Position numbers and translations under genes: made by a program. This document shows, in pieces, positions 516 to 40,277 of a stretch of 41,738 nucleotides of DNA. How positions within the stretch are numbered: position 1 is the first letter of the stretch; each line of letters opens with the position of its first letter. Source of the stretch: a virus. A model generated the notes under the pieces. That model was not told where the DNA came from. It worked only from the letters and a program-made list of their open reading frames with translations, and searched no databases. Where the stretch lies: IMG/VR virus record IMGVR_UViG_3300009285_002867, positions 1 through 41,738 of that record. One strand, 5' to 3'.

Positions 516-1090
516 TCGATCACCCCGGCAGGTTTCAGGCGCAACGGGTCAACGGATTTGGCGTTCGGTCCCAGATACACGCTTGCCTCATCCTCGATGA
601 CGACCGCATCGGGAGTCGCCAGTGACCCGACGCGGTCGATCTGCGCGGTGTTGGAATGGATGATCGTCCAGTCGTCGTGGGTCTGCACGTTCACCAAGTT
701 GCACTCAATGAAGGTCAGGTTGCGCCCCACGATGGCCTCGGTGAGAGGAGCAATCTGCGAAAAGTTGCTCTTCGTCACCGTCGTTCCGTCGGGAATCCTC
801 ACCGTGTGGTAGCTATAGTTGCGCCAGGACGGGTCGAACTCAATCGTCCCTCGGTGCACATCATTGCGGTAATCAGCGGGACGCACGAGCCGACTCACGG
901 GAGGCCGACGTTCCCCTGGGCGTCGATCCCGCCATCCCCGTGTAGAGAGTTGCGCGGTTTCAGCAGTGGACAGGCCGGCCTCTCCCCGTTCCGCGACGAG
1001 GGCGTTGGCGCGATCCACGTCACCCTGACCGGCAGAAGCGCTCGGCATCAGCCAAACAATCAACACGAGGCTCCACCCTATGGCCGACAT
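512..1090 (-). CDS. Exported protein of unknown function in the late operon
   Basis: 192 residues with an N-terminal signal peptide ending near SASA (residues 1-20). The rest is soluble. The segment around GTTVTKSNFSQIAP, GRNLTFIECNLVNV and THDDWTIIHSN resembles a short beta-helical stretch, as in small companions of tailspikes. It overlaps the upstream fibre-like gene by 13 bases and the beta-helix gene by ATGA, so it is probably co-translated with both. It may be a chaperone or accessory protein of the beta-helix protein. No family was recognised. Confidence 0.7.
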   Translation of the reverse strand: MSAIGWSLVLIVWLMPSASAGQGDVDRANALVAERGEAGLSTAETAQLSTRGWRDRRPGERRPPVSRLVRPADYRNDVHRGTIEFDPSWRNYSYHTVRIPDGTTVTKSNFSQIAPLTEAIVGRNLTFIECNLVNVQTHDDWTIIHSNTAQIDRVGSLATPDAVVIEDEASVYLGPNAKSVDPLRLKPAGVIE

Positions 1091-2226
1091 GTCACCGTCA
1101 CCGTGGTGTTGCTCCCTGCCACCGTTGACCCGACTTGATCGATGTCGATGCTGAGATAATTTCCTGACGCGAGCACGGTATCGTCAAAGCTCGTCTGCGA
1201 TCCCGTCGAGGCCGCCGCCGCGCACTGGACTCGATTGGCCTGCGTCGCATTCCAAATGCTCGTGCACGTCCCTGGAACCGTGCACTCATTCACGTCCACG
1301 ATGAGGGCCTGTCCGGTCGGGGCAGTCAAGCAGGAGAGATCGACGCGCTGGATCGTGCAGCTCTGGGGGATGCGCGGACGCACACTCTCGCACGGCATCG
1401 CCGTGGACATCGTACCGCCGCAGAACATACCCGCCGTGCGGTCAAGCGAAAAGCAACTGACTCTCCCTTCACCACTCGATGTCTGGAGGAACGTGCATCC
1501 TGTATTCTGCGGCAGGTAGAAGTTCCCCGCGCCATCCGCTTGCCAGAACCGTCGGCCGCTATCTGTCGCGTTGCCCCACCACGACGTTCCTCCACTCGGC
1601 CCGCTCTCCGCGTGGAGTCCCCAGGCGTCGCCACCCGTCGGCGTCAGGTTCAATTGCGTCCCAGCAAACCCACCAATCGTCACATCACCGGCGAAGGTGA
1701 CTTCTGCTCCTGAGACCGAGGAACTGGTCACCGCCCCGAAGGTCGTGGCGTCGGAGCGGAACTGGAGTTCAGAGCCGGAGCCGCCAGGGTTGCTGCCTCC
1801 GCCGGAGTCCGCCGCACACGCCCACGCCGTGTCCCCGGCGTTGCGTTTCATGATCTCATTGGCGGCGCAGTCGATAGTCGTGATGTCAATGGTATCCGTC
1901 CCCGCCGTTCCTGTGATGATGAGGGGGGTATCGGTTTCCGTGATCGTGAGTGTGTCGGTGGAGGAATCCGCGACCGGGTTGGTGCCCGCGGGGACGCTGA
2001 TCGTCTCGAAGGAGTTGCCGCTTCCTCCAGAAACGGTAATCGTCCCCGTGATGCCGGATTGCGAACAACTAATCCCCGCGCCGACGCAATCAAGTCGGAA
2101 CACAGGTTTGGTTTCCGTGCCCCCTTCATCCTGGATACCAACTGGCGGGTCAAACATCCCGCCGGAGGACGATGGCACCCAGGCCAGGAAACTCCACAGC
2201 GCCAGCACGATCCTGAGCTTAGGCAA
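1078..2226 (-). CDS. Exported, cysteine-rich tail-fibre-like protein
   Basis: 382 residues. The start appears to be TTG at 2226, overlapping the end of the upstream gene by 8 bases. Residues 1-22 form a signal peptide (MPKLRIVLALWSFLAWVPSS). The body is Gly/Ser/Thr-rich with low-complexity linkers (GGGSNPGGSGSELQFRSD, then GDVTIGGFAGTQLNLTPTGG), typical of phage fibres and appendages. It has roughly fourteen cysteines, mostly in the last 170 residues, which fits disulphide bonding outside the cytoplasm. A receptor-binding fibre is the likeliest role, but no defined domain was recognised. Confidence 0.7.
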   Translation of the reverse strand: MPKLRIVLALWSFLAWVPSSSGGMFDPPVGIQDEGGTETKPVFRLDCVGAGISCSQSGITGTITVSGGSGNSFETISVPAGTNPVADSSTDTLTITETDTPLIITGTAGTDTIDITTIDCAANEIMKRNAGDTAWACAADSGGGSNPGGSGSELQFRSDATTFGAVTSSSVSGAEVTFAGDVTIGGFAGTQLNLTPTGGDAWGLHAESGPSGGTSWWGNATDSGRRFWQADGAGNFYLPQNTGCTFLQTSSGEGRVSCFSLDRTAGMFCGGTMSTAMPCESVRPRIPQSCTIQRVDLSCLTAPTGQALIVDVNECTVPGTCTSIWNATQANRVQCAAAASTGSQTSFDDTVLASGNYLSIDIDQVGSTVAGSNTTVTVTCRP

Positions 2227-2542
2227 CGGTGAACTCCCAAATTATCACCGTAATTGTCGCCCCCGCACGCCCATACAGCGTCAGCTCATCCGTCATGGGG
2301 AAGGGAATAGAGGCCCCTGGGAAAATCTCGGCATTGTTCGTGCCCGTGATGTCCGAGCCACCTACATAGAGTGTTTGGCCGCTCGCAGACGGGTTGAAGA
2401 CCCAGAGTCCCTTCCGGTTCGCCAAGGCGGTGGTTGGCAACGCGGTGGCAGAGGTCGTCACTGAGACAGCAGTAATGCGGAGTGTCGCCCAGGAGGCCAC
2501 CCCCAGCAAGACGCCAGCGTTATAGTCCAACCCTCGACTCAT
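2219..2542 (-). CDS. Small virion-associated protein, unknown
   Basis: 107 residues with no signal peptide and little charge. It is beta-rich, with alternating small and aliphatic residues (ALANRKGLWVFNPSASGQTLYVGGSDI). The motif RKGLWVFNPSASGQTLYVGG resembles small phage proteins that decorate capsids or cap appendages, but this is only an impression. It shares ATGA with the coiled-coil gene upstream and overlaps the fibre gene downstream. Confidence 0.65.
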   Translation of the reverse strand: MSRGLDYNAGVLLGVASWATLRITAVSVTTSATALPTTALANRKGLWVFNPSASGQTLYVGGSDITGTNNAEIFPGASIPFPMTDELTLYGRAGATITVIIWEFTVA

Positions 2543-3450
2543 GCGGGAGGTTCCTCAGCCTTCACGGGAAACTCGCTCACGGTCAACCCGGCAGCTTTGG
2601 CCTGTTGCGCCTTGATCCGCAGTTCCGCTTCGAACTGCTTCATCCGGATGTCATGCTCGGTTAACGCCTCGGCCTTCGCCTGCAACTGGCTGGACAGGAT
2701 GGCCAGGTCGGTGCGCTGTTTCTCCACGTCCGCCTGTTGCGCGGTGATGGCTTCTTGAATGGTCTTGGCTTGGGTCAAATCATGCTCGGCCTGCTGTTGG
2801 AGCTTCGTCACCTCGGCCAGCTTGGGGTCGATGGTGGTCTTCAAAGCGGTTAGGTTCTCCAGTTGGGTCGCAATGTCTTTGGCCTGCTTGTCCAAGACCT
2901 GTTGGCGGATCTCCTGCTCCTGAAGTTGGGCGACGGCTTTGGCCTCACGCCCCTTGACGTGCTGATCCAATTGGCGGAGGGCTTCCTGGGAGGTCTCAAT
3001 GGACACCTGCAACTGCTCATTCGCCTGCTGCAACTCGACGTTCCGCATCCGCTGTTGTTCCACCGCCAAGCGTTCATCAGCCAACTGGTTGAGGGCCTGG
3101 CGAACCGGTTCGGCCTTGGCCTCAAGGATTTCCAACTCTTTCTTCTGCCCTTCCAACTCAAGGCTGAGCCCCTCCATCCCACGGCGTTCGGCCTGGGTGG
3201 CCTCGGATTGGGCACGCAACCCATCCTGAAACTTCATCTGTTCTACGTCCCTGTCATACTTGGCCTGGATGCGCTCCTGACGACACTGCTCTTTCGTACT
3301 GGCCAATTCGATCTGGGCTGCCGCTACCTCTTTGCCCAACGTGGCAAGTTGCGCCTTCTTATAGGCGATCAACTCATCAAGCTGGGCCTTCATGGTCATG
3401 GACTCTTCCGGCACCGCTTCCAATTTCGCCATCCGACTATCGCCTCCCAT
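2539..3450 (-). CDS. Long coiled-coil protein of the late operon
   Basis: About 303 residues, nearly all predicted alpha-helical coiled coil from residue 15 to 275 (runs of E/K/Q/L heptads such as EGQKKELEILEAKAEPVRQA). There are no signal peptide or membrane segments. The start at 3450 overlaps the stop of the polymerase-like gene as TGATG; an alternative start is 3432 (MAKLEAVPEE), which has a GGAGG about 10 bases upstream. It could be a structural rod, a scaffold or a cytoplasmic partner of the upstream membrane protein. Function is unknown. Confidence 0.7.
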   Translation of the reverse strand: MGGDSRMAKLEAVPEESMTMKAQLDELIAYKKAQLATLGKEVAAAQIELASTKEQCRQERIQAKYDRDVEQMKFQDGLRAQSEATQAERRGMEGLSLELEGQKKELEILEAKAEPVRQALNQLADERLAVEQQRMRNVELQQANEQLQVSIETSQEALRQLDQHVKGREAKAVAQLQEQEIRQQVLDKQAKDIATQLENLTALKTTIDPKLAEVTKLQQQAEHDLTQAKTIQEAITAQQADVEKQRTDLAILSSQLQAKAEALTEHDIRMKQFEAELRIKAQQAKAAGLTVSEFPVKAEEPPA

Positions 3451-4619
3451 CAAAGGACTCCTTCCAGTTCCGGTTGCTCCATGACTGCCCACGCGCATAA
3501 CCCTACCCAGGCCAACGGCGCGAGATGCCCTGGGAAATGGAAGAGGCTGATGACCAGGAAGGCGACCCACGTCCCGAACCACCCTGACACCAGGAGGGAA
3601 CGCGTCGCCGCCTGCCAGCCTCGCCAGGTGCTCCACGCCACCATCCCCGCAAGGAGGACTGTGCCCACGACCCCGATCTCAACGAGCATCTGTACCCACT
3701 CGTTGTGAGCCCAATGGTGGGCGTCTCCCATCAGAATTGGGAAGGACTCCAACCCATAGCCCGTCATGCTGGGGACACCTTTCCAGATGGTGCTGCGGAG
3801 CTTGTCCAGCGCCGCCATCCAGAGCGGCCAACGGGTCTCATCAGCGAGGAGCGCCGGCCATCCCTTAAGGCTTAGGCTCAGGAGACCCACGCCCAGCAGA
3901 CTCATCGCCCCCACACGCTGCCAGCGCTTCATCCGTAGCCACCACCGAGCGAGCAAGGAAGCCGTGACCCCTCCCACGGCTGCTACCCACGCATAGCGAG
4001 CCTGGGTCAACCAGAGTGCCACAATGGCGAGCAGGGCTCCGACGAAATACCGCTTACTGGAGAAGAGGAGGAATAAGGGAAGCAGGAGCGCCAGGTAGAT
4101 GCCGAGGTAACCCGCATTGCCGAACCCCGCCATGACGACTGCGGGTTGGAGCGCGGCGTTCGTCTGCACATACCACTGGTCAAGCCCCAGCCATTGGCCA
4201 AGCCCATAGCAGGCCGCCAGCCCGGCTGAGACGCACATCCACTGCGTCACGCGCTGAATGGAAAATGGGTGACGGAAATAGGCCGTCGCCAAGCTGTGGG
4301 CAAGGAGCACGGCCATGACGACCATGCCACACGCCGACCACACGTACCAGTTGAAGATGAGTTCCGACTGACCGGGTGAGCGGTAGAGGTAGTGCCACTG
4401 GAACTTCCAGCAGCTCACCCCGACCACCCACCCGATTAGCCACACCGTCCAAGGATTGCGCCACCCCGTCGAGACCATCGGCAACCGAAAGTGATGCCAG
4501 AGGATCAACCCCCACCCTCCCGCCGTCAGCAACAACGCTTTCGGCTCAAGGTAGGGATTTTCCACCCCTGGCACCACCACCCACGGGAGCCCCAACGTCA
4601 ACAGCGCAACCCCCCACAT
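3450..4619 (-). CDS. O-antigen ligase/polymerase-like (Wzy) membrane protein
   Basis: About 389 residues with roughly ten membrane segments. A large loop before the last segments carries HHWAHNEWVQMLVEIGVVG (roughly residues 300-320), the H-N-x-x-x-x-x-x-x-E-x-G pattern of the Wzy_C/O-antigen ligase family. That family polymerises or transfers lipopolysaccharide O-units at the periplasmic face of the inner membrane. A phage copy may alter the O-antigen (seroconversion, superinfection exclusion) or help release progeny. It sits unusually inside the virion-structure operon, between a secreted protein and a coiled-coil protein. The start at 4619 is a choice; an in-frame ATG at 4691 would overlap the upstream gene. 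Confidence 0.75.
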   Translation of the reverse strand: MWGVALLTLGLPWVVVPGVENPYLEPKALLLTAGGWGLILWHHFRLPMVSTGWRNPWTVWLIGWVVGVSCWKFQWHYLYRSPGQSELIFNWYVWSACGMVVMAVLLAHSLATAYFRHPFSIQRVTQWMCVSAGLAACYGLGQWLGLDQWYVQTNAALQPAVVMAGFGNAGYLGIYLALLLPLFLLFSSKRYFVGALLAIVALWLTQARYAWVAAVGGVTASLLARWWLRMKRWQRVGAMSLLGVGLLSLSLKGWPALLADETRWPLWMAALDKLRSTIWKGVPSMTGYGLESFPILMGDAHHWAHNEWVQMLVEIGVVGTVLLAGMVAWSTWRGWQAATRSLLVSGWFGTWVAFLVISLFHFPGHLAPLAWVGLCAWAVMEQPELEGVL

Positions 4620-4657: not shown

Positions 4658-5233
4658 TTAGTCGGAGTTGGCCGGTGCCACCCAAATCCACCGCATCTCG
4701 TTGTTCGCTTGGCCGTTCTGCTCACCGGCGGTCGTGCCGACCGTGTCGGCCCCATAGCCAGGTTGAGCGAGCGTCAAGGACATCGTGAGACCGGCGTTCG
4801 TGCCACTCCCCAGGTTGCCAGCGACGCTGGACGTACCGACCGTCGCCATCCGAGTATTTGTGTTGTCGGATGACCCAGCCCACTTGCAGATCGCAGGCCC
4901 CCAGGTCACGACCCTGACCAACCCGTCGTCCACCACCGTGTCATCCAACTGACACCCGACGAACGTGTTGACATCGTCGGTCGTGGTAGTCGTGACATCC
5001 AACCCTAAGGAACCCTCGTTCCCGAAGGTTTGAGCGACGAGTACGTTGGCGTCGGTGCTGTTATCCTGCAAGACGTAGGCCGTCCCAGAGACTTGCGTCG
5101 CCCCTGAGACGTTGCGGAAAATCTTGATGCTCCGCACGTTCGTCGCGTCCGCAGGCAACACCTCCGCCCATGCCTGTCCAGCGAACCCTGCCAGTACAGC
5201 CACTCCCAGGAGACACTTCTGTAGGGTGTTCAT
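4658..5233 (-). CDS. Exported protein directly downstream of the major capsid gene
   Basis: 191 residues. The start at 5233 shares ATGA with the capsid stop. Residues 1-23 form a textbook signal peptide (MNTLQKCLLGVAVLAGFAGQAWA). The mature part has patterns such as VRSIKIFRNVSGATQVSGTAYVL and beta-rich Thr/Val stretches, with few charged residues. The slot after the capsid gene is usually occupied by a decoration or head-tail protein, so a secreted protein here is unexpected. Function is unknown. Confidence 0.72.
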   Translation of the reverse strand: MNTLQKCLLGVAVLAGFAGQAWAEVLPADATNVRSIKIFRNVSGATQVSGTAYVLQDNSTDANVLVAQTFGNEGSLGLDVTTTTTDDVNTFVGCQLDDTVVDDGLVRVVTWGPAICKWAGSSDNTNTRMATVGTSSVAGNLGSGTNAGLTMSLTLAQPGYGADTVGTTAGEQNGQANNEMRWIWVAPANSD

Positions 5234-6213
5234 GCGGCGTCTCCTCCTGTCACGAACGCCTGCCGCGCAATGTCCACGCAACGCATGTTGCCGGTAAAGC
5301 GCAACCGCAGCACGGTGTCATCCTTGTCGATGTCCCCCATCGGCGGCGAGAAGGCGAGATAGTCGCCTTCCAACAGCGCCAGCTTGAGGTACTCGGTGTT
5401 GATGAACCGTGCCACATTCGCATCGGCATTGTCGTCAGGGAACATCCGCAACCCGTGCAGGCTGACATCCGGCACCCCGATGTCAAACCGCTCCCCGCTA
5501 ATGGGCATGTTCAACCGGACGGTCGTGAACAGCGCCATGTAGTTGAGGAACTGCGCTTGGTTGGTGATCCCAACGTCGGGGAAGTCCGCGCCCCGCTTGC
5601 CGTTCATCAAGGCGCTGCGATAGCCCGCGATGCCATTAGTGGCAAAGCTGGTAATCGCGGTGCCGCTGGCGTTCTGCCACCAGGTATTGCTCCGGGCAAT
5701 CCTCCCGGTTGTCCCGGTCGTGTTCCCGGTGGACTTGATGAGCGAGGGCAGCCCGGTCATCTTGGTCGCCTCGGTCTCATCATTGGAGTTCGCTGTCCAC
5801 ACGCCCCGCGTGCTGCCCCCCAGCGAGGAAATCATGCTGCGGATCATCACCGCCATCGCGTCCTTCACCAAGTCAAAGACCTGGTTCGGGCCGGAGTTGA
5901 GGATGATCTGCTGGTTGGGCAGACGTAACGGCACGTAGATGAACTTCGGGGCGTACTCCCCCACCGTCCACGGCGAGGCGTAGCTGGCGACCACATCCTG
6001 GGTCGGGCCTGCGCCTGTCGAGGCAATCTCTTCCTTATAGACCCGGAACCTCCACTTATCCCCTGCGGACAACTCTTCCTTCGCTTCCTCCAAGAACAGA
6101 TGCACAGTCGGGATGTTCGAGGTGATGACATCGAACAGCCCCGGAATCTTGGACGGATCGGTTGCCGTTTCGAGGATGTTGTAAGTCCGGGAAATGGCGG
6201 TTTCACCGGCCAT
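5230..6213 (-). CDS. Major capsid protein (candidate)
   Basis: 327 residues counted from the ATG at 6213; an earlier in-frame start at 6222 is also possible. GGAGTGTGGAGA precedes the ATG. Position (directly after a scaffold-like gene, downstream of terminase and portal), length and lack of signal or membrane segments point to the main shell protein. Features include an N-terminal helical region (LFLEEAKEELSAGDKWRFRVYKEE) and a C-terminal beta-rich part ending DDTVLRLRFTGNMRCVDIARQAFVTGG. An HK97-type fold is expected from the order terminase, portal, scaffold, capsid, but is not shown by sequence alone. Confidence 0.78.
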   Translation of the reverse strand: MAGETAISRTYNILETATDPSKIPGLFDVITSNIPTVHLFLEEAKEELSAGDKWRFRVYKEEIASTGAGPTQDVVASYASPWTVGEYAPKFIYVPLRLPNQQIILNSGPNQVFDLVKDAMAVMIRSMISSLGGSTRGVWTANSNDETEATKMTGLPSLIKSTGNTTGTTGRIARSNTWWQNASGTAITSFATNGIAGYRSALMNGKRGADFPDVGITNQAQFLNYMALFTTVRLNMPISGERFDIGVPDVSLHGLRMFPDDNADANVARFINTEYLKLALLEGDYLAFSPPMGDIDKDDTVLRLRFTGNMRCVDIARQAFVTGGDAA

Positions 6214-6231
6214 TCTCCACACTCCTCGGTC

Positions 6232-10283: not shown

Positions 10284-10540
10284 CAATTCCTCGCCACCAT
10301 CTTGGATTCCATCAGCGGTCACCCCTTACTCGCACGTACTCTTTCCAATCTCCGCTCAAGGCGAGCCGTCGGCAGGCGTCAGCATATTTCCAATGCGCAG
10401 GGTTGAGTTGTCGTTGCTCCGCTTCCCATGTGGGATACTCTCGCTGCCATTGACATTGGGATTCTTGCCGCATATCACCCATCAATGCCTCGCCGCCATC
10501 GCTGAATTGTCAGCAGTCAGCATCAGTTCCTTGCTGCCAT
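10281..10540 (-). repeat. Three copies of a 20-bp start/stop coupling cassette
   Basis: Copies at 10521-10540, 10480-10499 and 10281-10300. Read leftwards, each is ATGGYRGCRAGGMAYTGATG (20 bases). Each contains an AGG Shine-Dalgarno core and encodes M-A/V-A-R-N/H-stop overlapping the next ATG. The first is the C-terminus of the terminase; the second and third end tiny reading frames (12 and 8 codons) that lead into the genes starting at 10482 and 10283. Confidence 0.75.
10312..10482 (-). CDS. Small protein downstream of the terminase
   Basis: 56 residues, MGDMRQESQC at the start and ALSGDWKEYVRVRGDR at the end. Polar and helical with four Trp residues. It starts in the second copy of the coupling cassette, so translation probably depends on the 12-codon frame that follows the terminase. 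Function is unknown. Confidence 0.6.
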   Translation of the reverse strand: MGDMRQESQCQWQREYPTWEAEQRQLNPAHWKYADACRRLALSGDWKEYVRVRGDR

Positions 10541-11983
10541 CAACGTCCAAGCTAAGTCGTTCGGGTGCATCGGAGGTCGGTGGTGCGGGAAGCGGGTGCG
10601 GAAGGCACGGTGCTCTTTCTCATACGCCAGCCACTCCCACGGGTCATTCCGCTCCCACCAGTGGGGCGTGATGACTTCCTTAGCCTGGGGGGTGCGCCAT
10701 TGTCCCGCCAGTCCCCAGGCGGCGAGCATCAGGGCGGTCACGCCATCATCGTGCTTGCCCTCCGGCGCTCCATAGCGGATCGCGCCGCTTGGCATCCTGG
10801 TGGATTCGTACTGCTGCAACTCCGCGATCAGCCACTCCGTCGCCTGCTCCCTGGGGATGCCCAAGTAGGCCTGCTCGATGGCGAGGGTCAGGTTCTCCAC
10901 TAACTCCGATTTGGTCTTGGGCGTGAAGAGGACATCGATGACCTCGACCCCTGCCCGTCGCAAGTCCTGGGCGATGGGATCGCCGACCCCCGTGCTGTCA
11001 ACGTAGGCGAGGCTTGTGGGGTAGCGGTCGAGCAGGGCGAGGCTGGCCGCTTTCTGCATCGCCCAATCCTGGTGGCGGCTGCGGGTCAGGGCAACCATCT
11101 GCTGGGATTCCACCTCAATGATGATGGTGGCCATCCAGTCCTCTTTCCTCGCCACATCAATCCCCGCAACGTAGTGGCGGCTTGGCACGGCCTCTCGCAA
11201 GTTTCCCCGCCACAGCTCGTCCTTGAGGGTGAAGTGCTGGCCTTCGTGCTGGAGGAACTCGGCTAGATACTCTTCCCGGAACTTCGCGGCGGAGGTAGTA
11301 CGCTGGATGAATGCCCACTCCTCTTCCATCTTCGCCAAGTGGTCAGGCGTGTTGGCAAACCGGCTGCGCCAGCAGTCCAGGGTCGAGGCGTGGCACACGC
11401 TGATGTCGGGGTCGCCCTCCACCCCGCGCTGGTAGAGGTCGTAGAAGAGGCTATCGAGGCCATTAGGGGTGCTGATGAGCAGGCTGCGGCCTCTCGTATC
11501 CGCCAAGGCGGGGCGGATGTCGGCTTCGTAGGCGTCTTTGGGGGTGCGACTGGCCTCATCGATGACCGCCCAGTGATAGCCGCCGCCACGCCCAGCGCCC
11601 CCCTGGGACTCGGTGGAGCGGAAGTCGATCTGACCCAGCGGCCCCAGGTCCATCCGCAGCTCGGAGATGATGGGCTGGACAATGGCGTGCTTGAGGACAT
11701 GGCTGGCCGTCCACCAGTTCTCCCGCAGCATTTGGTTGGTGGGGGCTGTGATGATGCCGCGCGGGCGCTCCACCCCCGCACGGTGGGCGTCATAACTCAT
11801 GCAGAAGCCTTCGATGATGGCGAGCAGCGACTTGCCACCCCGCCGCCCCCAGCGCACTACGCGGATGCGGTGCTGATCCTCATGGACGCGCTGTTGGAGG
11901 GGGAAGGCGCGGTAGGGAATCTCGATGCGCTGGGCTTGGGGGGGGATGGCTTGCGGTGGAGGCGCTTCTGCGACGGCACTCAT
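10523..11983 (-). CDS. terL: Terminase large subunit
   Basis: 486 residues. Packaging ATPase and nuclease that docks on the portal and cuts concatemeric DNA. The N-terminal ATPase carries RWGRRGGKS (Walker A variant, about residues 45-55) and HWAVIDEASR (Walker B with catalytic Glu, about 140-150). The C-terminal RNase H-like nuclease shows YVAGIDVARKEDW, LAYVDSTGVGDP and GKHDDGVTALMLAAW with the expected Asp residues. The start at 11983 has GAGGAACCAG upstream; an in-frame ATG 12 bases earlier is less well placed. It resembles Terminase_6-type enzymes. Confidence 0.93.
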   Translation of the reverse strand: MSAVAEAPPPQAIPPQAQRIEIPYRAFPLQQRVHEDQHRIRVVRWGRRGGKSLLAIIEGFCMSYDAHRAGVERPRGIITAPTNQMLRENWWTASHVLKHAIVQPIISELRMDLGPLGQIDFRSTESQGGAGRGGGYHWAVIDEASRTPKDAYEADIRPALADTRGRSLLISTPNGLDSLFYDLYQRGVEGDPDISVCHASTLDCWRSRFANTPDHLAKMEEEWAFIQRTTSAAKFREEYLAEFLQHEGQHFTLKDELWRGNLREAVPSRHYVAGIDVARKEDWMATIIIEVESQQMVALTRSRHQDWAMQKAASLALLDRYPTSLAYVDSTGVGDPIAQDLRRAGVEVIDVLFTPKTKSELVENLTLAIEQAYLGIPREQATEWLIAELQQYESTRMPSGAIRYGAPEGKHDDGVTALMLAAWGLAGQWRTPQAKEVITPHWWERNDPWEWLAYEKEHRAFRTRFPHHRPPMHPNDLAWTLMAARN

Positions 11984-12054
11984 CTGGTTCCTCAAACAGT
12001 CAGGGCGACCCCCCGTGAGGGAGATCGCCCTTAGTCTAGTCGGGTGACGGAAAA

Positions 12055-15547: not shown

Positions 15548-15850
15548 ATGACCAGCACTTGGAAGGGCTCACTGGGCACAGCCTCGAACATCGCCCGGCA
15601 GATTGCCGAACGGTACGGGCCCGAAGCAGCCAAGCAGTATGACCCCACCGTGAACTGCTTCACGTATCGAGGCTGGCGGGAGCGCGGGTATCAAGTGAAG
15701 CGCGGCGAAAAGGCGATGCACTCCATCACCTTTGTCCCGATGCTGGAAAAGCCGAAGGAAGGCACCACGACGAAGGAAGTCGCCGTGCATAGTGTGCCAC
15801 GCCCGGTGTATCTCTTCTGGAAGGAGCAAGTGGAGGCACGAGCAGCGTAA
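15548..15850 (+). CDS. Small protein resembling an ArdC N-terminal ssDNA-binding domain
   Basis: 100 residues. NCFTYRGWRERGYQVKRGEK and AMHSITFVPM (residues 37-65) resemble the ArdC/DUF1738 N-terminal domain (pattern: Asn-rich start, W-x-x-x-G-x-x-V-K-x-G-E-K-A, then a beta strand). That domain binds single-stranded DNA in plasmid antirestriction proteins. The metalloprotease part is absent. The function would be inferred only from similarity of pattern. Confidence 0.65.
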   Translation: MTSTWKGSLGTASNIARQIAERYGPEAAKQYDPTVNCFTYRGWRERGYQVKRGEKAMHSITFVPMLEKPKEGTTTKEVAVHSVPRPVYLFWKEQVEARAA

Positions 15851-29239: not shown

Positions 29240-29908
29240 ATGAAGAAGATAAGGGTCAACAGTCCTGCGGTGATCTTGGGGGTGGTGGTGTTGCTGGGGA
29301 TAGGAGCGGTCTTCTCCAGCGTGAATATCCTCGTCGCAGTATACAACACCATGGTGAGCTCCAAGATGGGAGCCGAACAAGCCTTGAGCGATTTGGAGAG
29401 CGTCTATCAGCGTCGGTATGCGCTGGTAGAAAACTTAGTGGGTCTTGTGAAGGAGACGAAGGGATTTGAGCAGTATCAAATTGAGATTGAGAAAGAGTTG
29501 TACCCCCGTGTCGCCGAAGCCAAAGCGCAAGCGACTAAATTGAACTTGACGTTCCCGAAGGAATCTGCACAACGGATGGGACAGGAAACCACCTTGCATA
29601 ACGTCCTTCTGCAAACGCTGGACAAGCTGTTAGTAATGGCACAGCACTACCCGACCATCACTGATCCGGTACTCAAGGATCGCACAGCAACCTTTGAGGC
29701 GTTGGCAGGGTTAAAGACCTCATTGCAAGACTTGGAAGTAAGCGTCCAGACACACCGGCAAAACTTCAATGCGTCAGTCCGAAGCTATAACCAAAACATT
29801 CGCATCTTCCCTGCGAACCTGTTCGCGGCCTCTTGGGGGTTTGCCCCATTGAGCGGGTTTGAAGTCCTGTCGGATGCAGCGAGGGAAGATGTTCGGATCG
29901 CGTGGTAA
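29240..29908 (+). CDS. lemA: LemA-family membrane-anchored protein
   Basis: 222 residues. One membrane segment near the N-terminus (residues 9-33), followed by YNTMVSSKMGAEQALSDLES and VYQRRYALVENLVGLVKETKG. The latter matches the LemA core (YN-x-L-V-x-x-x-x-x-V-x-x-A-W-x-x-x-x-x-x-x-x-R-x-x-L-x-x-N-L-V), and there is a long helical region and a C-terminal YNQNIRIFPANLFA. LemA-like proteins occur in many bacteria, often near proteases; their function is unclear. A phage copy is unusual. It starts after GAGGAGGAG. Confidence 0.82.
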   Translation: MKKIRVNSPAVILGVVVLLGIGAVFSSVNILVAVYNTMVSSKMGAEQALSDLESVYQRRYALVENLVGLVKETKGFEQYQIEIEKELYPRVAEAKAQATKLNLTFPKESAQRMGQETTLHNVLLQTLDKLLVMAQHYPTITDPVLKDRTATFEALAGLKTSLQDLEVSVQTHRQNFNASVRSYNQNIRIFPANLFAASWGFAPLSGFEVLSDAAREDVRIAW

Positions 29909-34531: not shown

Positions 34532-34752
34532 ACCCTGTCCTCCACCAGTGATGCCATATCCGTGTTTGCCTCCGTTGGTACAGCAACGTTGTCCACGGCA
34601 GATTCCAGACCAACCATTTCATCCAGCGGGCTGCACAAGGACTTAGATTGATTACAGTCAGCACATGGAGAATTGTCGGCGTCACCCAGCGGTAGACGAT
34701 CAGCCCAACTCGCTTGCGGCCTTCCCAACACTCGGCGCGGTAGTCCATTCAT
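34528..34752 (-). CDS. Small protein with a CxxC motif
   Basis: 74 residues, MNGLPRRVLGRPQASWADRL, then SPCADCNQSKSLCSPL. ATGA overlaps at both ends favour it over a competing frame at 34455-34748. Unknown function. Confidence 0.6.
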   Translation of the reverse strand: MNGLPRRVLGRPQASWADRLPLGDADNSPCADCNQSKSLCSPLDEMVGLESAVDNVAVPTEANTDMASLVEDRV

Positions 34753-35141
34753 GCGGGCGGAGCTTTCTTCTTCCGCACTCGGACGACAAAACCTCGCCCG
34801 GCCAACACCGCAAGGGCTCCCGCTGCGCCTGCGCCAAACTCCCCAAGGGGAATCTCTTGCTCTTCTTCCTCTGCCTTCCGTCTCGCCTCGCGCTTGGCAC
34901 GGATGTCCGGGTCATGCGCCGTCACCACCGCGTCCAGCGCGATCCGATCCGCCTCCGTGATCTCGCCCGCACACGCAATCGTCCCCCAGGTGTCGGCACA
35001 GACCCCGATGGAGGGCACCGCGCGTTGCAGTTCATTCATCAGTTCCCTCGCGTCCATCTGCGTCGGCGTCACCTGGTACGTCTCCGCCCAGACCACCGGC
35101 GGAACCACGACCAGGCACCCGACGATCATCAGCATCCGCAT
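34749..35141 (-). CDS. Exported protein with a C-terminal hydrophobic and basic end
   Basis: 130 residues from ATG 35141 (AAGGAGATCACG). Signal peptide MRMLMIVGCLVVVPPVVWA (1-19). The middle contains PSIGVCADTWGTIACAG and a charged helix with RRKAEEEEQE. The end is GEFGAGAAGALAVLAGRGFV followed by RKKK, which looks like a stop-transfer or sorting-like tail. Function is unknown. Confidence 0.65.
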   Translation of the reverse strand: MRMLMIVGCLVVVPPVVWAETYQVTPTQMDARELMNELQRAVPSIGVCADTWGTIACAGEITEADRIALDAVVTAHDPDIRAKREARRKAEEEEQEIPLGEFGAGAAGALAVLAGRGFVVRVRKKKAPPA

Positions 35142-35155
35142 CGTGATCTCCTTGG

Positions 35156-36055
35156 TTAGTCCACGACTTCCAAGACTGACATGGTGCACGGAGTGGCGCT
35201 GTTGCATAAGACTGTGCCCTCTCCGGACGCCTCGGCTGCCTGGATCACAATCGTGTGGCTGGCCGCCGTCAGCGCAGCCGTTTGGTGGCAGAAGCTCAAG
35301 TTCACGTCATCGCTGGCGGCGCTGCTTTCCACAGGGATGCCGGTGGTGCCCAACTCAAGTGCCCCATCCACATCGACGTTCACTCGAATGCTCCCGCCCA
35401 ACGAGGTATTCGCTCCCGCCCCGACAAAGCATACCTGCACAGGATTGGCGGCCGTGATCCGCGTGATCGACATGCCGGTGATGGTCGCCAGGGAAGTCGT
35501 GAGCGCCACATCCCCCGCCGTCCGTTGGGCGCGGGCGGCATTGGTGCCGCCGACATCGGCTGAGATAGTCGTCCACGTCGGAAGAGACCCTCCTTGATGA
35601 GTTAACACTTGTCCAGATGTTCCTCCAGAGGTCGCTTTTAAGGAACTCGTCCCATCGGCAATTACGACTTGGTTCGCCGTCAACCCAGCCGTCCCTGAGA
35701 TCGTCACCACCTGGGAATAGGTGCCAGGCGTGGGATTATCCACCAATATTAAGTTGGCCGTGTCGTCAAACCGGAAGCAGCTATCGGTCGTATCGGCGGC
35801 ATCGAAGCAGAGGCTCTTATTGCCAGCCGCGCCATCGCCGATACTGGTGGTGTTGGCTAGGCTGTGGACGTGGGTATTGCCCCAGTTCGACGTATCATTG
35901 CTTCGGTCATTCACATCGGCTGCGGCAATGGTCGCTCCCGACGTCGCCGAGGGGTCAATGGTGAGCGTGGTGGTGGAATCCTCCGTGTTGCCTGCCCATG
36001 CCACCGGCAGACAGGCGCAGCAGACGAGCAACAGGCTAAGGAGCCGTGAGCGCAT
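35156..36055 (-). CDS. Exported tail-fibre-like protein
   Basis: 299 residues from ATG 36055 (GGAGGTGCTCTGCGA). Signal peptide MRSRLLSLLLVCCACLPVAWA (1-21). The mature part is Thr/Ser/Gly-rich with patterns typical of phage fibre shafts, such as QVVIADGTSSLKATSGGTSG near residue 150 and a C-terminal beta-domain with four Cys (VCFVG, SFCHQ, LCNSATPC). It may be a receptor-binding fibre. No catalytic motif. Confidence 0.68.
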   Translation of the reverse strand: MRSRLLSLLLVCCACLPVAWAGNTEDSTTTLTIDPSATSGATIAAADVNDRSNDTSNWGNTHVHSLANTTSIGDGAAGNKSLCFDAADTTDSCFRFDDTANLILVDNPTPGTYSQVVTISGTAGLTANQVVIADGTSSLKATSGGTSGQVLTHQGGSLPTWTTISADVGGTNAARAQRTAGDVALTTSLATITGMSITRITAANPVQVCFVGAGANTSLGGSIRVNVDVDGALELGTTGIPVESSAASDDVNLSFCHQTAALTAASHTIVIQAAEASGEGTVLCNSATPCTMSVLEVVD

Positions 36056-36335
36056 TCGCAGAGCACCTCCAAGTCGTCGGAAGCGTGATACAGAAACAGA
36101 GTTTGTAACTTCCTCCATTATTGTAAATGAGCAGATCGCCCACCTGATCGGCGCGAATGGCCCCGTTAGGATTGGTCGTTGTCACCACCAAGCTATTCCA
36201 CTCCCTTGAAACCTTTCGCATCCATAGTTCATCTGCGACGGGGCGATCCTTGCGAGGAGTCGGGGGAGGCAACTCCCCTCCAACAGCTACTTGGACGATC
36301 AGAATCACCAAGCCAAGTACCAAGAAGCCTCTCAT
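36036..36335 (-). CDS. Small exported protein
   Basis: 99 residues from ATG 36335, overlapping the tail-hub gene by ATGA. Signal peptide MRGFLVLGLVILIVQVAVGG (1-20). The mature part includes WMRKVSREWNSLVVTTTNPN and YKLCFCITLPTTWRC. It may be a partner of the fibre that follows. Confidence 0.6.
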   Translation of the reverse strand: MRGFLVLGLVILIVQVAVGGELPPPTPRKDRPVADELWMRKVSREWNSLVVTTTNPNGAIRADQVGDLLIYNNGGSYKLCFCITLPTTWRCSANALTAP

Positions 36336-37969
36336 TCCCGTAACGTTTGCTCTAGCCATAACCGCAACCCCTTCACCACGAACGGCTCTGAGGCATTCGC
36401 ATTGGCGACCCGCCATTGGAAGAAGTAGTCGCCATCGTTGATTTCCACCCGTCCAATCGTTGTTGTCAGGTCGGCATACACATCAGCATCGTAGATCGCG
36501 GTGTCGTAGAGCGCCCCGCTCCCCGCCAAGCTGATACTGGTAGACGTTCCCGTCCCCTCAAAGTCAAGGCGTCGGGTGAACGTCAGGTTGTAGCTACCGC
36601 TTTGCTCCACGTAGAGTTGTGCCACTCGGAAGACCTTGCGGAGGGGGAACTCTGGGAACCGGTACTGCCCCGATTGCCAGTAGGCGTTAATGGCGCTGCC
36701 CGCATCGGCATTGGTGTTGGGGTAGCGGTTGACAAACCCCACATAGTCGCCAAAGGCGATGGCCGGCTCAAATGTCCCGATCTCATACGACCAGAGGGCA
36801 TTGCAGTTGATGCCGGTGAACTTCGTCCAGGCACGGTGGAAGGTATCGAAGACGAGCACGCGGTTGTGGAGAACTGACCCGCTCGCCGTCTCGCACGCAT
36901 AGTAGTCCTGGTCACCCGTCCCATCATCAAAGGCCGTAGCTCGCACGGCATCCATCCGGTTGAGGTTGAGGGCATTCAGCGTCCCCTCAATCTTCGTGCT
37001 GAGGATTTCCACATTGATACCCCCGTCATAGCGGGCATAGTCTCCAAGGTGAGTCTTAAAGAGAAACTGGTTGTTGATGACCACGACGCTGCTGTTGGAG
37101 CGCGTCCCGATGTCCCGCACCATCTGTTCCTGGGTGAAGGTATCACGGCTGCTCCCGCAGATGCGCCAGATGCTACCCGTCTTCCAGGCATAGAGGCAGT
37201 CCAACCCCGACTTGATCGCCGTGACCACCTGCCCGTCATTGGTGTCGAGTTCAAAGAAGTCAGTAGCAGTGTAGGTTTCAATGCAGGAGGCTGCGGTGGT
37301 ACAGATGTTGGAGAAATTGACGCGGGAGGGATTGGTGTTGTTGCCTGCCGACCAGAGGTGGTTCTTGTGGTACTCGACCATCGTGGCGTTCGGGGGGCTG
37401 CCACCCAGATCAGCCGCATTGCCCGTACCTGTCCACTTGAACGGGGCGGTGGTGTTGACCCCATCCTCAATGACGAGGGTATCGAAGGCTTGGGCGAAGT
37501 CTCCCTGGTTGTCGTCCCCGACGCTGAAGGTGACGCTTCCTGTGATGTTGTCCCACGTCCCATCGGGGCCAGCCGTGCCTGCCCCGTAGTCCATCGCTTG
37601 GATGCGGTCGCTCCCGCCATCGTTGACGAGGCGGATGAGGAAGCGGTCGCCATCCGACTGCCGGTACATGGTGCCGCCGATGGTGGCAGCCGTCGCGCTC
37701 GGATTGGCGGTGGAGTTAATGCGGCTGAATCCTTCCCGCTTCTGGATGGCGCTACTGGTCGTGAAGACGACGTTCTGCAAGTCGGAGGCTTCGCCAAGTT
37801 GCAAGGACGTGGGGTCTCCGCCATCATTCAGCCCTGGGGAGAAGTCGAAGATTTCCACCGCCTGCCACGGAAACCCGCTTTGGGCTTCAGCCAATGAGAC
37901 AACCGGCCTCGCCCTCCCTGCCAACAGCAGGAGGATGGCGGGAATGAAGCAGAGTGGTATGCGTCTCAT
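36332..37969 (-). CDS. Tail-hub / tail-stabilisation protein with a signal-peptide-like start
   Basis: 545 residues from ATG 37969 (ATGA overlap). Residues 1-24 (MRRIPLCFIPAILLLLAGRA) look like a Sec signal. The body contains IFDFSPGLNDGGDPTSLQLG and EASDLQNVVFTTSSAIQKREGF, typical of podovirus tail proteins that bind the end of the connector (P22 gp10 or T7 gp12-like beta-propeller). Later segments with YHKNHLWSAGNN, FFELDTNDGQVVTAIKSG and WKTGSIWRICGSS repeat in propeller fashion. The signal is unexpected in a hub protein. Confidence 0.75.
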   Translation of the reverse strand: MRRIPLCFIPAILLLLAGRARPVVSLAEAQSGFPWQAVEIFDFSPGLNDGGDPTSLQLGEASDLQNVVFTTSSAIQKREGFSRINSTANPSATAATIGGTMYRQSDGDRFLIRLVNDGGSDRIQAMDYGAGTAGPDGTWDNITGSVTFSVGDDNQGDFAQAFDTLVIEDGVNTTAPFKWTGTGNAADLGGSPPNATMVEYHKNHLWSAGNNTNPSRVNFSNICTTAASCIETYTATDFFELDTNDGQVVTAIKSGLDCLYAWKTGSIWRICGSSRDTFTQEQMVRDIGTRSNSSVVVINNQFLFKTHLGDYARYDGGINVEILSTKIEGTLNALNLNRMDAVRATAFDDGTGDQDYYACETASGSVLHNRVLVFDTFHRAWTKFTGINCNALWSYEIGTFEPAIAFGDYVGFVNRYPNTNADAGSAINAYWQSGQYRFPEFPLRKVFRVAQLYVEQSGSYNLTFTRRLDFEGTGTSTSISLAGSGALYDTAIYDADVYADLTTTIGRVEINDGDYFFQWRVANANASEPFVVKGLRLWLEQTLRE

Positions 37970-39608: not shown

Positions 39609-39784
39609 ACTTCCTCGTGCGGATCATAGCCGATGGGTTCCCAATAGTCGCAATGGGAACACTCCCAGCGGATCCGCGGCTTGGTGGACTCCATTGATTC
39701 CACGTCCACCCGGATCATCAACCGCCCGCAGCGACGGCAGTAGATCGTCTGCAAGGGGAGAGGATTCAGTGAGTCGCCAGCCAT
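39605..39784 (-). CDS. Small zinc-ribbon protein
   Basis: 59 residues. CRRC (residues 16-19) and CSHC (42-45) form a classic two-knuckle ribbon (TIYCRRCGRLMIRVDVE, then RIRWECSHCDYWEP). The start lies inside the end of the broken membrane-protein gene. Confidence 0.68.
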   Translation of the reverse strand: MAGDSLNPLPLQTIYCRRCGRLMIRVDVESMESTKPRIRWECSHCDYWEPIGYDPHEEV

Positions 39785-40277
39785 ACCACCGCTCCGCTAT
39801 GCCATCCACCCAAAATCCCTTCGCAGAGCTTCCAGGTGAGTGCGTTCCATCGTCTGCTCGCCCACACCAAGCCGACAAGTAATGCAGCGGAAATTGGGAT
39901 CAGGAGCCACGATGTCACGGATGACGCCGCACCCGCCAGCGGCAACAGCCGACAAGTAATGCAGCGGAAATTGGGATCAGGAGCCACGATGTCACGGATG
40001 ACGCCGCACCCGCCAGCGGCAACAGCGAACACGCATAGCAGCATCCGATGAACCACCGCTTGGCCCAGGTGGCGCGGTCGCCCCACCCTAGGTGGGCGGT
40101 GAAGGAAATCCAACCAGCCACCCAGCACCATTTCCACCAGACAATCCCCAAGACAGCCAAGGCAATGGAGAGGAGCGCCGGATAAACGTAGCGCCTGACC
40201 CACTTCGCGCCAGTTCCGCCGATGGCCCAGCAGAGCCAGCCCATCGGGACGACCAGTATCCACGCCCATTCAGTCAT
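39766..40277 (-). pseudogene. Membrane-protein gene broken by a 77-bp tandem duplication
   Basis: The first part (from ATG 40277) reads MTEWAWILVVPMGWLCWAIG and shows about three membrane segments up to the duplication. The frame then runs into the first copy in one phase and stops at 39915. The natural C-terminus (LLVGLVWASRRWNALTWKL) follows only in another phase and ends at 39766. Removing one copy of the repeat restores a single frame of about 145 residues. The gene is therefore either truncated in nature or damaged by assembly. Confidence 0.75.
39870..40026. repeat. 77-bp perfect tandem duplication
   Basis: The unit beginning GCCGACAAGTAATGCAGCGG at 39871 recurs at 39948; the second copy runs to 40024 and the match continues by chance to 40026. 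Both copies are identical. The period (77) is not a multiple of three and breaks the gene at 39766-40277. 77 is also a standard k-mer length of a common assembler. Confidence 0.95.

Follow-up and report, generated by a model that had tools for sequence, protein, structure and literature searches.

What is a gene for a predicted O-antigen polymerase- or ligase-like membrane protein doing among the virion genes of a phage, and on what would its product act? Phage enzymes that rewrite the surface sugars of the host are known as the products of lysogenic-conversion genes. Such a gene (here called wzy) built into an operon of virion genes would place surface remodelling, or the glycosylation of virions, in the late programme of infection. 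The gene considered here lies in the 41.7-kb IMG/VR virus record IMGVR_UViG_3300009285_002867, which is classed as linear and was analysed over its whole length (the window). Judging from profile comparisons, its product truly belongs to the Wzy_C superfamily and the gene sits in an unusual place; the probable substrates are surface sugars of the host, with exported phage proteins as a less likely alternative.

Position of wzy in the late gene run

The source virus is an uncultured short-tailed phage. Terminase, capsid, adaptor-like and tail genes occupy the minus strand at both ends of the window, and between them lies a different block of small genes, mostly on the plus strand. The gene for the terminase large subunit (TerL; 10523..11995, minus strand; Pfam Terminase_6N/6C, PHROG 2) heads a same-strand gene run, and the major capsid protein (MCP) gene (5230..6222, minus strand) was recognised by the podovirus-type model NCBIfam NF033394 (98.2 bits) and by PHROG 9953. 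A leader-bearing, spike-like gene is apparently split over the contig ends (1-515 and 41334-41738, minus strand). By ORF-list arithmetic its frames leave two bases over at one end and a codon start at the other, so that reading does not continue from one part straight into the other; a piece of sequence has probably been lost, and the record is unlikely to be complete. Scans of the window proteins, in which the small ORFs were covered only in part, revealed no integrase, and among the genes scanned wzy is the only one recognised as serving glycan synthesis. Elsewhere in the window, a LemA-family protein with a hydrophobic N-terminus (29240-29908, plus strand; Pfam 4.5e-23) represents uncommon cargo, there is a brief similarity at 15548-15850 (plus strand) to the N-terminal domain of ArdC, an anti-restriction factor, and two ORFs overlapping in different frames at 39766-40277 (minus strand), one of which has a lipoprotein-like leader, resemble a nested pair of spanin genes.

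The wzy ORF (3450..4619, minus strand) starts with ATG at 4619 and stops with TGA at 3452-3450, its frame being open to 4691. It encodes a glycosyltransferase-like, polytopic membrane protein of 389 aa, with about 10-12 spans according to hydropathy and low-confidence helix assignments. Directly upstream is the gene for a 191-aa protein with a Sec-type leader (4658..5233, minus strand), whose ATG overlaps the MCP stop codon (ATGA). Downstream, the gene for a 303-aa coiled-coil protein (2539..3450, minus strand) has an ATG that shares the last base (A) of the wzy stop codon, giving a TGATG junction with a one-base overlap (TTTGATGGG). The initial annotation had described a polytopic ORF at 3450-4619, set between a secreted capsid-adjacent protein and a coiled-coil protein and coupled by overlap to the latter, and the ORF check, the leader and the two junctions bear this out in full.

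The 303-aa coiled-coil protein has no membrane span (hydropathy maximum 0.58), which rules out a Wzz-like role, and gave only weak coiled-coil-type family matches. In a defence-system library it had a weak JetC2 match, which looks like generic SMC-type similarity; the wzy product matched nothing in this library. The GC3 of wzy is 0.79 as against 0.75-0.83 in the neighbouring late genes, with GC also similar, so that nothing in its composition marks wzy as foreign or chimeric, and an assembly chimera is unlikely given GC3 and the overlapping junctions.

Assignment to the Wzy_C superfamily

Compared with the Pfam model Wzy_C (PF04932), the isolated wzy product reached 28.1 bits (E 2.1e-6), slightly under the cutoff of 31.7; in a six-frame search the wzy region scored 30.4 bits, or 32.2, over this cutoff, when in-frame neighbours were counted in. 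The characterised Wzy-beta of phage D3 obtains only 21.9 bits on the same model, and the reversed wzy product had no Pfam match. Moreover, hhalign aligned the wzy product with an alignment of Sphingomonas-type O-antigen ligase-family proteins over 240 columns with a score of 59.4 and a probability of 93.6%. The maximum score of 20 hydropathy-preserving block shuffles was 25.6 and that of the reversed sequence 16.3, all with probabilities of at most 2.7%. Since the Sphingomonas-type relatives had themselves been picked for similarity to the wzy product, the Pfam match is the more independent result. A hydrophobicity artefact behind the Wzy_C match is ruled out by the reversal and shuffle controls. 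The profile score is thus borderline, and together with hhalign and its controls it identifies the wzy product as a predicted member of the Wzy_C (O-antigen ligase/polymerase) superfamily.

Searches for closer relatives and for structural matches returned little. AlphaFold models built from 8- and 1-sequence inputs had low pLDDT values (50.7 and 47.7), and Foldseek found no significant match with them; phmmer matched the wzy product to none of the PDB sequences. Single-protein scans found no close homologue in phage, viral or genome collections, a scan of viral contigs with an alignment of the wzy product and its bacterial relatives yielded no relative, and neither did a search at E<=1e-6 in 398 genomes from the phylum to which G052 belongs, a negative that carries no weight because a positive control was lacking.

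Candidate catalytic residues and predicted topology

Candidates for a catalytic Arg/Arg/His set are R208 (TQARYAW), R263 (ETRWPLW...TGYGLESF) and H305 (WAHNEW), of which R263 was assigned by motif, MAFFT and hhalign placing R275 or its vicinity there instead. The published sets are R215, R288 and H338 in E. coli WaaL and R224, R298 and H349 in N. meningitidis PglL (PMC3643930) and, from a structure cited by PMC10920833, R191, R265 and H313 in O-Lig. The spacings in the wzy product are 55 and 42 residues, compared with 73-74 and 48-51 in WaaL and PglL. Its basic loops (SSKRY, ARWWLRMKRWQR and WRGWQAATR), read by the positive-inside rule, put R208, R263 and H305 on the periplasmic side, so that the catalytic face is predicted to be periplasmic. 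With this set on the predicted periplasmic face, where the initial annotation had advised looking for conserved Arg/His residues, and with the Pfam and controlled hhalign matches, its Wzy/WaaL-like family call stands.

Phage Wzy genes and the capsid-adaptor region of related phages

D3-type Wzy genes, VarioGold p25 among them, are present in 12 phage records. In the four of these that were inspected (D3, FBPa19, Marin and VarioGold) the Wzy gene runs antiparallel to its late-gene neighbours and adjoins integrase, lysis or tail-fibre genes, in line with the earlier statement that such genes usually occupy moron positions. The wzy gene of the window differs from these in being co-directional within the late gene run. 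Among 50 virus records, many of them fragments, that had been selected because of a related TerL or MCP, a search with Wzy_C gave no match, which agrees with the late-operon placement being unusual, as had been proposed. No polytopic protein occurs in the capsid-adaptor gap of relatives of the window's head/tail module, and a scan with a TerL alignment reached nothing closer than distant terminases, set among genes unlike those of the window. In the Tunturiibacter phage Tunturi_4 a glycosyltransferase is annotated between the terminase and portal genes (L003:1567-2565), another case of a glycan enzyme within a head module.

Predicted export signals and Cys content of the late proteins

Sec-type leaders were found in 7/24 late minus-strand ORFs as opposed to 33/1733 (1.9%) same-strand ORFs in related loci, for which Fisher's test gives p=5e-7, a value that serves only as a guide because the leader heuristic is our own simple script, tuned on the window. 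Late genes with such leaders, recognised by the script or by eye, lie on the minus strand at 3-515, 1078-2226, 4658-5233, 34749-35141, 35156-36055, 36036-36335 and 36332-37969. The mature leader-bearing set is six-fold enriched in Cys (41/1926 residues versus 15/4236 in the other late proteins, p=1e-10), in a comparison that is not fully blind, as it takes in p192, p130 and p108, which were picked by eye or in the first scan. Among these proteins are fibre-like proteins of 382 aa (1078..2226, minus strand), with 14 Cys, and of 299 aa (35156..36055, minus strand). The tail protein encoded at 36332..37969 (minus strand), whose start is ATGA-coupled, is homologous to podovirus proteins of the stabilization/nozzle type and appears to have gained its leader at the N-terminus: alignment with the proteins of L117 and L005 and with other relatives places the leader before the segment where the relatives begin, and it is absent in most homologues (L181-L190, L005, L117), those of L184 and L185 being ambiguous, with a longer hydrophobic N-terminus and an internal Met.

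We infer that the leader-bearing late proteins are exported via Sec. Such a share of leaders and Cys in virion-type proteins is unexpected, and no precedent for exported virion proteins was found in the literature searched, which does not prove that there is none. Tailed phages are usually pictured as assembling wholly in the cytoplasm, a picture that leader-bearing, Cys-rich tail-type proteins would challenge if the export is real.

A proposed late role at the host surface and its alternatives

The strand, the spacing and the TGATG junction make wzy part of the head/tail run, and its product should therefore be made late. It would be a GT-C-type membrane glycosyltransferase of the Wzy_C superfamily; such periplasm-facing enzymes take a glycan from undecaprenyl-diphosphate to an acceptor. 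Several neighbouring tail-type proteins carry export signals, which makes a site of action beyond the inner membrane, at a late stage of infection, probable. The likeliest acceptor would be a lipid-linked or surface glycan of the host, and a change in linkage, chain length or ligation may leave the cell surface and cell debris less able to bind progeny. What the sequence shows is the family, the conserved residues and the placement of the gene; the topology, the timing, the glycan donor, the acceptor and the benefit to the phage are all deduced indirectly, and the prevention of progeny readsorption, suggested by the initial annotation, remains an inference only. To a late, periplasm-facing glycan polymerase or ligase that alters the host surface glycan we give roughly an even chance. 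The co-directional placement, the junction, GC3, the catalytic equivalents and the Wzy_C and profile matches are consistent with it, the D3 and VarioGold Wzy_C proteins provide a precedent, that of D3 being a characterised surface-glycan polymerase, and the polysaccharide export locus around a plasmid-borne relative points the same way. The lack of a close homologue, of any other recognised glycan-synthesis gene and of a confident model (pLDDT only 51 and 48) counts against it, and the adjacent exported proteins fit a role in protein glycosylation at least as well.

Indeed, the main rival, which the initial annotation had omitted, is that the wzy product is a protein O-oligosaccharyltransferase that glycosylates the exported proteins of the phage in the periplasm with a lipid-linked glycan of the host. 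We consider this unlikely; what keeps it live are the leader-bearing, Cys-enriched neighbours, to which can be added the superfamily and catalytic residues held in common with PglL/PglS and the exported-protein gene directly upstream of wzy, 21/31 PglL genes adjoining their target gene (PMC3643930). Its targets, on an equally doubtful assignment, would be the adjacent 191-aa protein, the fibre-like proteins and the leader-bearing tail protein. However, the wzy product matches neither PglL_A (PF15864) nor Wzy_C_2 at E<=1, and in a hand alignment F166, I357 and H361 replace the PglL-only residues Q178, H400 and E404 (PMC3643930), the last of which is conserved in PglS too; membership of the PglL family therefore fails. 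That tail and fibre proteins are exported by Sec, disulfide-folded and glycosylated in the periplasm by the phage Wzy_C transferase, and joined to filled heads no earlier than lysis, is a still bolder scheme that we regard as quite improbable.

The absence of Wzy_C from the 50 related records and of a comparable gene from the capsid-adaptor gap, as well as the moron nature of the inspected phage Wzy genes, could also mean that wzy is a recent passenger in the late operon, kept for lysogenic conversion or useless in the lytic cycle. This seems doubtful to us in view of the one-base overlap, the neighbour-like composition and the co-directional orientation, unlike that of the antiparallel morons, and of the failure to recognise an integrase among the proteins scanned, which took in only part of the small ORFs. 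The sub-cutoff score of the isolated protein, the missing close homologues and the unproductive structure predictions would suit a merely superficial resemblance of some other polytopic membrane protein to Wzy_C, which is very improbable given the controls, the R208, G-x-G and AHN features held in common with Wzy_C proteins and the lower score of a characterised Wzy, that of D3, on the same model.

Comparison with known systems

The wzy product has several known counterparts. The D3 Wzy-beta group consists of phage-encoded Wzy_C proteins about as long as the wzy product, in which Arg, Arg and HN motifs can be made out by eye, and its hhalign score with the wzy product is 13.4, inside the range of the shuffled controls; with no similarity above shuffles and no moron position, the wzy product does not classify as a D3-type seroconversion polymerase. 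PglL and PglS have in common with wzy the arrangement of the gene beside that of an exported protein. WaaL transfers O-antigen to the lipid A core, and Wzy joins lipid-linked repeat units into a polymer, as a rule together with a Wzz co-polymerase. WaaL (CAZy GT121) has the same Arg/Arg/His set and a longer periplasmic loop than the wzy product, and its His is replaced by Asp or Glu in most related polymerase families (PMC10920833). The Sphingomonas-type O-antigen ligase-family proteins (WP_252575059.1 on NZ_CP098764.1; loci L172-L179) are about 20-25% identical to the wzy product and share with it the Wzy_C domain, the first Arg (R208), G-x-G and the AHN motif, the wzy product having shorter loops between the catalytic residues. 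They are encoded by bacterial genes, and the nearest, on a Sphingomonas plasmid, belongs to a polysaccharide export locus, where its neighbours encode a tyrosine autokinase and a polysaccharide export protein, as is typical of loci for Wzy-dependent exopolysaccharide synthesis. Sequence alone separates neither ligase from polymerase, and this plasmid context leans slightly towards a polymerase for the wzy product.
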